From Bacillus sp. FJAT-27245 (GTDB lineage Bacteria; Bacillota; Bacilli; Bacillales; Cytobacillaceae): a DNA stretch of 32,222 nucleotides. Below are positions 11,837-30,825 of the stretch, in pieces. The number at the start of each line of letters is the position of its first letter. The stretch's first letter is position 1. A program made the position numbers and the translations under genes. The stretch covers positions 3,376,143 to 3,408,364 of the forward strand of contig NZ_LIGI01000001.1 in NCBI RefSeq assembly GCF_001273955.1, written 5' to 3'. The notes below the pieces were generated by a model. The model was not told the DNA's origin. It worked only from the letters and a program-made list of their open reading frames with translations, and ran no database searches.

Positions 11837-12044
11837 ACTCTCAAAACCGTTTTCCGGAAGCTTCCTCGGTGAAATGGTCTTGATGAACACTCTCAAGACC
11901 GTTTTGAAGAAGTTTCCTTAATGAAACGGTCTTGATGAACCCTCTCAAGACCGTTTTGCTGGAGTTTCCTCGGTGAAACGGTCTTGATGGACCCTCTCAA
12001 GACCGTTTTGTGGAAGTTCACGAGGTGAAACGGTCTTGAATGCT
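11837..12044. repeat. Array A: four 52-bp units with inverted AAGACCGTTT arms
   Basis: Unit starts are 11837, 11889, 11941 and 11993. Each unit holds TCAAGACCGTTT, a 19-nt spacer with a variable GAAGTTTCCTCGGTG-type sequence, AAACGGTCTTGA and a 9-nt linker. The outermost left unit is more divergent (AAAACCGTTT / AAATGGTCTT). It lies between the pilin operon's start and the SbsC-like gene's terminator. Confidence 0.95.
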
Positions 12045-12160: not shown

Positions 12161-12212
12161 GGTGCCTGGCACCGAAGTGGAGGTTTTTTGTCCCAGTTGG
12201 GTGCCAGGCACC
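12161..12212. repeat. GGTGCC-type 52-bp hairpin element
   Basis: GGTGCCTGGCACC and GGTGCCAGGCACC ends, core TGGAGGTTTTTTGTCCCA. The element lies 9 bases past the SbsC-like stop codon, in the opposite orientation to the copies near 6263 and 26649. Confidence 0.85.
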
Positions 12213-17382: not shown

Positions 17383-17780
17383 TTTTTTTGGGAAAAGGGG
17401 CCCATGCCATAGGGAACTGTACACACCGGTTTGCGGCGCTTTGATGGTTTGAGGAGGATTCTCCGGAACGAAGAATCCAGACGGGTTATTGGAGGGCGCA
17501 TCGTACATGGTCGCGAAACACAGAGGGCAGTCGAACCTTGAATCCTTTACCTTTGGCATTCCGTATCTGTGGCTATTACGAGCAAAAACGAAGAAGCCAG
17601 GGTTATCCTGGCTTCTATCAGTCTATTAAGTTAAAGACTAGGATAATGAAGGGCCAGGCAAGCAGGCTTTTTATTAAAGAAGCGAGTTTAATCCGATTAT
17701 TCACTCAAAGAAGTGAATTATTAGTAACATTGACTGATTAATAAGCGAATCTTTGAACCTATTCTGATTGTAAGACTCAT
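17383..17780. other. Gene-free stretch with hairpins
   Basis: No convincing gene is seen. A perfect 10-bp hairpin AGAAGCCAGG / CCTGGCTTCT with a 5-base loop lies at about 17591-17615. A TTCACT / AGTGAA dyad follows near 17699-17716. A short minus-strand reading with two CPLC-type cysteines (17359-17559) shows no recognisable domain. This is the left flank of the 9-unit array. Confidence 0.4.
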
Positions 17781-18240
17781 CAAGACCGTTTCATCTTAGG
17801 ATACCCCTCAAAACGGTCTTAAGATGCGGCATCAAGACCGTTTCATCTTAAGTAACCCCTCAAAACGGTCTTGAGATGCGGCATCAAGACCGTTTCATCT
17901 TAAGTAACCCCTCAAAACGGTCTTGAGATGCGGCATCAAGACCGTTTCATCTTAAGTAACCCCTCAAAACGGTCTTGAGATGCGGCATCAAGACCGTTTC
18001 ATCTTAAGTAACCCCTCAAAACGGTCTTGAGATGCGGCATCAAGACCGTTTCATCTTAAGTAAGCATTCAAAACGGTCTTGAGAAGAGGCATCAAGACCG
18101 TTTCATCTTAAGAACCCTTTCAAAACGGTCTTGAGAAGGGGTATCAAGACCGTTTCATCTTAAGTAACCCCTCAAAACGGTCTTGAGATGCGGCATCAAG
18201 ACTGTTTCATCTTAGGAAACTCCTCAAAACGGTCTTTAGT
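17780..18240. repeat. Array B: nine 52-bp units with the same inverted arms as array A
   Basis: CAAGACC starts are at 17781, 17833, 17885, 17937, 17989, 18041, 18093, 18145 and 18197, always 52 apart. A unit is TCAAGACCGTTT, 19-nt spacer CATCTTAAGTAACCCCTCA, AAACGGTCTTGA and 9-nt linker GATGCGGCA. The interior units are nearly identical, and the first and last are more diverged. The array lies between two convergent genes. Confidence 0.97.
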
Positions 18241-18275: not shown

Positions 18276-19202
18276 TTAACGTCCGTGAATATATTCATAA
18301 AAGGACCAACGATGTTTACTTACTAAATCTAAGTTTTTCTCTAAAACCCTCCGTATCCGCCGCTTCGGCACCCTTCCCCCGCACCACTCATAAATATCAT
18401 TTGTAGTTATTTTCCTCCCTGGGAACAAAACCTTGTATTCCCACACATGCCGCATAACAGCAGCATCAACAATTTCCCTTTCCCCACAAGCCCCACAAAC
18501 ACAATAATGACCCTCCACCCCGACCAAAGCGGACGCGCACCGCCCGCAGAAAAGCGCCTTTCGCAACCCGTCATACTCATAAGCCGGAACATTTGAATAC
18601 CTCGACTCCACCTGGTGCAGGGAAACCAGGTGATCCGCAAGCTGATAGTGGCTTTTCGTCAACTTCGAAGTACGCGCGTCAAATTTTTTAAAAAAGCGAT
18701 TTAACTGGGAGTGCATGAGCATCGACTTGTCACGAGGAGCATGGAACAAGGCAAATTCGGGGTTAATAAACACGGCGGTTGATTGTATTTGTGGAGAGTA
18801 GCCAAGCGAGTGGAGCATATTGCGCAGCTGCGAATCATTGCGGGCCATTTGAAGCAAGGGGTTCGTAACATCCACATCAGGCAGCCTGATAATCCGGTCA
18901 TTCTTTGCATCATAGACATGGTCGCCATAGAAGTTTTTCACTTCAAACGGGTAAAGCCTTTCCGGCGCCAGGACGAGCGAATCGATTTGGAACGTCGTGT
19001 TGTTGAACTTGAAAAGCAAGTCGTTCAAGACGAGGCAATCACTTTGGAGCCGGCCGGTCCACTCATCAAACATCAGCTCCCCTTCAAACCCCTTCTTCTT
19101 ATTCGCATAATAATTCGCATCCTTCTCTACCAAGCCCATCCTGACATCCAGCAGCCTCAGCGCAGTCAACTCACCAGGTTCCGTGCGCGGTTTGAACAGC
19201 AT
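18276..19202 (-). CDS. NERD (nuclease-related) domain protein with zinc-finger C-terminus
   Basis: A 308-aa protein. The N-terminal half contains the NERD signature: GFEGELMFDEW, FNNTTFQIDSLVLAPERLYPFEVKNFYGD (with the D...E-x-K core in IDSL / FEVKNF) and the later HSQLNRF region. The C-terminal part has cysteine pairs FCGRCAS and CVCGACG, a likely zinc ribbon, then a basic RRIRRVLEKN end. The ATG at 19202 follows GAGAGG. NERD domains are related to restriction-type nucleases; here no partner gene is adjacent. Its stop is 35 bases from array B, and the array lies in its 3' region. Confidence 0.85.
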   Translation of the reverse strand: MLFKPRTEPGELTALRLLDVRMGLVEKDANYYANKKKGFEGELMFDEWTGRLQSDCLVLNDLLFKFNNTTFQIDSLVLAPERLYPFEVKNFYGDHVYDAKNDRIIRLPDVDVTNPLLQMARNDSQLRNMLHSLGYSPQIQSTAVFINPEFALFHAPRDKSMLMHSQLNRFFKKFDARTSKLTKSHYQLADHLVSLHQVESRYSNVPAYEYDGLRKALFCGRCASALVGVEGHYCVCGACGEREIVDAAVMRHVWEYKVLFPGRKITTNDIYEWCGGRVPKRRIRRVLEKNLDLVSKHRWSFYEYIHGR

Positions 19203-25406: not shown

Positions 25407-25532
25407 ATTAATGCCGATTGGGGCGATATTAATGCCGATTGGGACACTATTAATGCCGATTCCGCTGATAATAATGCCTAATTCCACAATAATAATGCCA
25501 AACTAGCTATTATTTATGCCTGACGCAATAAA
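25407..25532. repeat. Six-unit 21-bp direct repeat (ATTAATGCC)
   Basis: Unit starts at 25407, 25428, 25449, 25470, 25491 and 25512, exactly 21 apart. The core A(T/A)TAATGCC is constant; the remaining 12 bases (GATTGGGGCGAT and variants) drift. It lies between the DivIVA-like gene and the terminator of the SH3b gene. No gene is seen in 25228-25406. Confidence 0.9.
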
Positions 25533-30686: not shown

Positions 30687-30825
30687 GGTTGTCAGAATAA
30701 GAACGGATATCTGACAACCATAGGCGAAAATCCAATTCGGGTTGTCAGAATAAACCCGGATATCCGACAACCGCAGGCGTAAACCAGGTTGGCTTGTCAG
30801 AAAAAAAATCGGATATCTGACTATT
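30687..30825. repeat. Array C: three GGTTGTCAGA / TCTGACAACC dyads with 52-53 bp period
   Basis: Left arms at 30687, 30740 and 30792, spaced 53 and 52. Each GGTTGTCAGA is followed by about 13 bases and TCTGACAACC (the second copy reads TCCGACAACC; the third is partial, GCTTGTCAGA and TCTGAC). The linker with ATAGGCGAAAATCCAATT-type sequence is also repeated. Confidence 0.9.

Follow-up and report, generated by a model that had tools for sequence, protein, structure and literature searches.

The closest described counterparts of the arrays considered here are the 52-nt repeats of Bacillus reported by Subirana and Messeguer in 2021 (PMC8161180). In the accessible part of that article these repeats are constant in size and variable in sequence, occur in approximately 30% of the species studied, have units of 51-53 nt, form several species-specific families per genome and are mostly present in 4-10 copies; their constant size is left there without an obvious explanation, and no protein partner is named in that part. 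A second system of interest is the RAYT/REP pair, in which, according to the accessible sections of its description (PMC2817692), RAYT genes are flanked by their own REPs and gene and repeat co-evolve.

Two arrays of the 52-nt kind, designated A and B, are located in the window, that is, in the whole analysed stretch of 32,222 nucleotides from Bacillus sp. FJAT-27245 (Table 1). The first-pass annotation had ascribed to both of them the same 12-bp inverted arms and an exact 12+19+12+9 layout of 52 bp, and this was confirmed: the arms are TCAAGACCGTTT / AAACGGTCTTGA with 31 bp from start to start within a dyad and 21 bp between dyads, and the first dyad of array A has one altered base in each arm. 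The window contains 26 occurrences of the arm at up to one mismatch, compared with a mean of 0.22 in shuffled sequence. The same annotation regarded the spacers as unrelated and the arrays as not being copies of a single unit, which the comparison of spacers contradicts, since with B turned round they match those of A at 8.31 of 19 positions, against 3.94 of 19 as read and a shuffled mean of 5.87 (p = 0.002). Judged from these sequences, A and B would most simply be drifted copies of one ancestral unit, in which the spacer changed and the arms and distances were kept. Inside array B the spacers mutually agree at 16.4 of 19 positions on average. In the related Bacillus sp. FJAT-27445 an orthologous array is present for B and the orthologous site of A has no array; consequently, after the divergence from this strain array A was either acquired here or lost there.

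Table 1. Position of the arrays and of the NERD gene with its domains in the window
Feature	Position	Strand	Description
Array A	11841-12039	.	Four dyads TCAAGACCGTTT-19-AAACGGTCTTGA, 9 bp from dyad to dyad, period 52
Array B	17780-18238	.	Nine dyads, arm family of array A, orientation opposite to A, period 52
NERD nuclease-type protein gene, 318 aa	18276-19232	-	3' end 37 bp from array B
Predicted winged-helix domain, residues 251-316	18285-18482	-	Fold matches with middling scores
Zinc ribbon, residues 224-252	18477-18563	-	Pfam match under cut-off (16.5 vs 24.8 bits)
NERD domain, residues 47-155	18768-19094	-	PF08378, 54 bits, cut-off 22.1, E 2.7e-14
Third dyad array	30687-30821	.	Other arm family GGTTGTCAG / CTGACAACC, period 53, 2.6 copies

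The suggestion that selection acts on the dyad geometry was strongly supported by 107 loci from the own genome (G000), FJAT-27445 (G002), Neobacillus piezotolerans YLB-04 (G005), ten genomes of the genus g35, and the genomes G235 and G262. Outward neighbours, whose spacing is independent of the search pattern, are 21 bp apart in 254 of the 297 pairs up to 80 bp and in 254 of the 266 pairs at 17-27 bp, and inward neighbours are 31 bp apart in 318/375 pairs and in 318/341 of those at 26-32 bp, figures that are partly search-driven because an inward-31 pattern was used for finding the loci. The alignment of arms and spacing against spacers points in the same direction: in 18 orthologous array pairs (own genome versus FJAT-27445 or G005) the spacing is kept and the arms agree at about 21.6 of 24 positions, which is partly forced by the detection rule, while the spacers agree at 9.1 of 19, compared with 6.1 in non-orthologous pairs and 4.8 in shuffled letters, with 8 of the 18 pairs lying above the 95th percentile of non-orthologous agreement.

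The period itself was assessed by a blind scan that accepted inverted 9-bp arms irrespective of their sequence and every period from 36 to 79; in 1.23 Mb from three genomes it detected 14 arrays (6 in the own genome, including the 3 previously known in the window, 7 in G006, and 1 in G381) and none in 200 kb of shuffled DNA. The period was 52 in 12 of the 14 arrays, 53 in one, and 51 in one, while the own genome contributed the arms TCAAGACC or TGAAGACC, ATTTGGACA, and GGTTGTCAG, G006 the arms ATGAATGACA, CTATGTTAC, TAGATTAAT, and GGTCGCCAA, and G381 the arm ATGAGGACA; the constant is the period, not the arm, which, like the NERD link described below, was beyond the reach of the first-pass annotation. 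With 10.4 bp per helical turn, 52 bp corresponds to five turns of DNA.

Arrays A and B are members of the published 52-nt repeat class as far as the accessible part of its description goes (PMC8161180), with the unit sizes listed above, several arm families in both G000 and G006, and inverted arms in A and B that correspond to its short signal plus the reverse of it. What is added here beyond that description is the layout of inverted sites at 31/21 (or 29/23), the conservation of arrays at orthologous loci, and a NERD gene with matching arms. The 29/23 split is found at L184 (2863-3200), where the arms are TGAGGACAATGTT and the units 51-52 bp long.

Dyads of the A/B type (at most 3 mismatches in 24 bases) were found in 3 of 61 genomes, all three from one genus with 8 members, numbering 65 in the own genome (50 of the 65 listed), 54 in G002, and 5 in G005; the reversed control pattern gave 0 in the own genome. 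A second arm type of identical geometry (type II, ATGAAGACANTTT) is represented by 43, 49, and 11 dyads in these three genomes and by 8 in G046, and none was found in the other 57 genomes searched. Across the order the type II pattern matched 17 of 397 genomes, including 10 of the 14 members of g35, compared with 1 genome for the reversed control, and the single two-mismatch dyad in four genomes of this search may be due to chance. The 52-bp layout is also present in G235 and G262, and at L037 both arm types succeed one another in one unbroken 52-bp register. Arrays persist at orthologous loci of related species, and among the type I and type II loci of the own genome array B, with 8.8 units, is the longest measured.

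Array B is situated behind the gene of a 318-aa protein in which the PD-(D/E)XK residues E52, D84, E97, and K99 of the NERD domain and the zinc-ribbon cysteines 229, 232, 246, and 249 are invariant in 48/48 aligned proteins, 47 of them taken from the best 120 of 755 homologues. PF08378 is the only family above cut-off for this gene. The structure model of the protein (pLDDT 90.8) resembles PD-(D/E)XK nucleases, including nickases, and its residues 251-316 resemble winged-helix proteins. Invariant residues together with the modelled fold suggest a nuclease, and the winged helix of the model is likely the arm-reading part. The protein is like other NERD proteins (PF08378) in its domain score far above the cut-off and in the retained nuclease residues, but differs in that its zinc-ribbon/winged-helix branch has a linked array, while four distant NERD-only proteins of the own genome have none.

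Close relatives of this protein were found in 13 of 13 other genomes searched (2 to 7 each, 40 places, E <1e-50), and the own genome possesses three close and four distant NERD relatives. When 36 of the 43 close NERD genes from 14 genomes were examined by TRF and by an inverted-arm scan, 35 of them had a 50-53-bp tandem array within 1.5 kb, in each case with one 3' of the gene: 34 arrays were identified by TRF at 16-154 bp and the array of L326 by the inverted-arm scan at 28 bp, and only at L291 was no array found by either method. Without the previously known own gene and its G002 orthologue the linkage amounts to 33/34. Among the controls, arrays adjoined 0 of 4 distant NERD-only paralogues of the own genome and 1 of 13 valS loci; of 3.9-kb windows drawn at random from three array-bearing genomes, 5.7% contained one. 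The scan detected inverted arms at 24 of the 36 loci, 20 of them strict and 4 relaxed, the remaining arrays showing only the period, and NERD-linked arrays are longer than the sampled ones, with a median of 7.4 versus 2.9 units (34 versus 17 arrays, p = 0.0002). At L289 the NERD gene is flanked on both sides by 52-bp arrays with arms ATGAAGACCT in both.

This link between NERD genes and 52-nt arrays appears to be new; in the searched literature on 52-bp-type repeats and on NERD with repeats, mostly outside subscription journals, no NERD link is reported. It surfaced only on searching the paralogues of the NERD protein and not from the clustering of neighbours, in which 589 ORFs were screened for a recurrent DNA-binding neighbour of the dispersed arrays and the clusters present in at least 3 loci were common proteins, with no candidate among them. 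The valS gene as a cross-family array site was a false lead that arose from the clustering of related synthetases.

The same arms recur elsewhere in the genomes. Same-arm dyads of 21 NERD-linked arrays with strict arms were counted in 400-kb samples of G000, G006, and G381 that contain none of the NERD loci tested, and 5 of the 6 families belonging to the sampled genomes recur in the sample of their own genome (L308 with 10 dyads, L287 with 2, and L309 with 0 in G006; L314 with 21 in G381; L328 with 9 and L329 with 1 in G000), with 0 dyads in the other two samples. The arm of L309 resembles, by eye only, that of array L254. Among the 15 arrays of other genomes, 9 had no matches and 6 had some, namely, L282 (9), one of the two arrays of L289 (4), L293 (2), and L322 (2) in G000, and L286 (1) and L326 (3) in G006; L282 and L293 have orthologues among the genes of the own genome, and thus these matches are partly orthologous. 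The arm of the third array of the window is found in the NERD-adjoining arrays L311 (G002) and L312 (G005), the latter showing GGTTGTCAG in its unit where the arm chosen by script was poor, and L330, the own NERD3 gene of the L311/L312 clade, has a short 51-bp array with a sequence unlike the GGTTGTCAG arrays. On the tree, sister or near NERD genes have common arms in L282/L328, L286/L287, L293/L329, and L289/L317 and differing arms, despite 71-89% NERD identity, in L312/L313, L310/L293, and L308/L326, so that the arms can switch fast. None of the three close NERD genes of the own genome is linked to type II arms (ATGAAGACA).

The reading preferred here, with a probability of about 0.55, is that the protein encoded next to array B, which combines a NERD domain with a zinc ribbon and a predicted winged helix, likely binds these inverted arms; by nicking or cutting at them it would then probably serve to maintain the arrays or to spread them. 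The observations behind it are the adjacency in 35/36 loci, the matching arms in the same genome, the fixed spacing, the drifting spacers, and the conserved nuclease residues; binding, cutting, and spreading would be putative activities of the NERD protein, and every protein of this kind is probably specific for the sequence of its own array across the genome. In the proposed mechanism the C-terminal winged helix would read the arm, proteins at phased arms would form one assembly at five-turn (52-bp) intervals, the array behind the NERD gene would be the source array, and nuclease activity at the arrays would either keep them or drive their copying to new extragenic sites.

By analogy, this arrangement may best be read as an enzyme-repeat pair with RAYT/REP-like logic and an unrelated nuclease; it is not a RAYT system. 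In the accessible description of RAYT/REP/BIME (PMC2817692) a gene likewise adjoins its own dispersed intergenic repeat family, several pairs occur per genome, gene and repeat co-evolve, and tandem units are inverted; here a gene stands beside its own dispersed repeats in 35/36 loci with 5/6 families recurring, which is a likeness of working and not membership. The differences are a NERD nuclease-type enzyme instead of a Y1 tyrosine transposase (PF01797), units of A and B without a GTAG head, an array only 3' of the gene in nearly all loci, the 52-bp phasing, and arm pairing that is not kept. RAYT itself was rejected as the partner, since the Y1 gene at C1:1984834 is adjoined by other repeats and Y1 genes are present in 23 of 24 genomes, whether or not a genome has these arrays. 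Near C1:1984834, at L033 (2000-2400), a Y1 transposase-like gene is adjoined by repeats of its own, namely, TCACTAGTGA units about 54 bp long as well as GTAG beside GGGTCAGACCC, which do not belong to the 52-bp family. The arrays are similar to CRISPR in having constant and variable parts in tandem beside a nuclease gene, but array B consists of near-identical units in place of unique acquired spacers, the spacers diverge by drift in the course of descent, and numerous arrays lie dispersed.

A wider form of the preferred reading, rated at even odds, is that of a widespread nuclease-satellite system, in which each protein of the NERD-zinc-ribbon-winged-helix type would own a genome-wide family of 52-bp dyad arrays seeded behind its own gene, and specificity and arm would switch together between species, the geometry remaining fixed and older arms being left as relics. 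If true, it would account for the unexplained 52-nt repeats of Bacillaceae by a single co-evolving system: a bacterial satellite DNA whose nuclease and array sequence evolve together, paralleling RAYT/REP but based on an unrelated enzyme. It would then also offer many natural protein-site pairs for the study of changes in DNA specificity. One gene family beside the arrays provides this long-puzzling repeat class with a testable partner. Several findings fit the nuclease-repeat account poorly: an internal in-frame stop within the homologous segment of the NERD-zinc-ribbon gene at L329, L293, and L315 (3/36), where a 52-bp array is still found 3'; similar NERD proteins whose arms differ; the lack of a linked own gene for the type II arms; and retention at orthologous loci, which is slower than in a busy mobile element. 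The missing array at L291, the detection of inverted arms at no more than 24 of the 36 loci, the deviating array of L330, and the arm matches of six arrays from other genomes likewise speak against it.

An unlikely alternative, though the most probable of the rival readings, is that the NERD protein is a structural partner polymerising on phased sites, for nucleoid organisation or transcription stop at gene ends, and that the arrays are spread by ordinary recombination. The five-turn period suits such a polymer, as do the long persistence of arrays at orthologous loci and their gene context: arrays avoid divergent gene pairs and favour convergent and co-directional intergenic sites, with 29 convergent, 65 co-directional, and 6 divergent sites among 100 classified against 48, 168, and 65 among 281 background pairs, in a count with genes called simply from ORFs that omits 10 arrays lying at the edge of a locus and 3 lying within predicted ORFs. 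A polymerising nucleoid protein is also proposed in the accessible part of PMC8161180. What speaks against a purely structural role is that the nuclease residues are invariant in 48/48 homologues and that several paralogues each have a repeat of their own, a pattern typical of enzymes that spread repeats, RAYT among them.

Improbable, too, is a role in defence or self-marking, with the arrays serving as bait or sensors for the nuclease. It was considered on the basis of fold matches of the NERD protein to the defence nucleases Can2, Card1, and Cdn1 and of a weak similarity to PglW (E 0.0044 in PADLOC and 0.022 in NCBIfam) far under the cut-off; but no known defence family exceeded its cut-off, no relative of the NERD protein was found in phage, plasmid, and viral collections, and no dyads were found in viral contigs. 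The outward pattern gave one unrelated match in viral contigs, and array B had no match in plasmids. The absence of viral dyads, of a plasmid match of B, and of a relative of the NERD protein in these collections also led to the rejection of a phage or plasmid origin.

The possibility that the arrays act as RNA, being read through from NERD or other genes into hairpins or small RNAs, is slightly less credible still. Arrays do lie 3' of genes with inverted arms that could pair, and transcription of the 52-nt repeats of B. coagulans is reported in the accessible part of PMC8161180. The first-pass annotation had set compensatory arm substitutions, expected of RNA, against matched substitutions, expected of a protein site. 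In a set of 306 distinct dyads, agreement between the two arms exceeds expectation at positions 2 and 8, the ones that separate the two arm types, and in this pool also at positions 9 and 11, whose composition differs between genera. Within G000 and G002 there is no excess at position 9 (53/93 against 55.6 expected and 33/63 against 38.6 expected) and no matching beyond shuffles at positions 4-6, 10, and 12, and in g35 the excess is weak (positions 2, 9, and 11, p 0.02 to 0.05). Matching was thus confined in G000 and G002 to positions 2 and 8, and because position 9 and others vary independently, the variation of the arms favours independent protein sites over a paired stem. Paired RNA was rejected, since the Rfam search gave no match and there is no compensation within an arm type; the fixed five-turn period also has no evident RNA reason.

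The view of the arrays as neutral satellites, for which the NERD 3' end would simply be a frequent site, agrees with their local homogenisation and with the persistence of some beside broken NERD genes, but is the least probable in the light of the 35/36 adjacency in 14 genomes with many different arms, the period of 52 in 12/14 arrays, and the matching arms elsewhere in the same genome.

Several minor observations concern other repeats. In a test for intrinsic terminators (hairpin plus T-run) no T-run followed the dyads of A and B, while isolated pattern matches in other taxa do resemble terminators. Tandem repeats with 41-42-bp units were seen near close and distant NERD genes at L316, L318, L331, and L332, and two of the four distant NERD genes lie near 41- or 42-bp repeats. 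In the window a tandem repeat of 21 bp and 42 bp is located at 25407-25499, and two inverted GGTGCCTGGCACC-type palindromes, presumably resembling a REP pair, lie at 12161-12212 between array A and the next gene.
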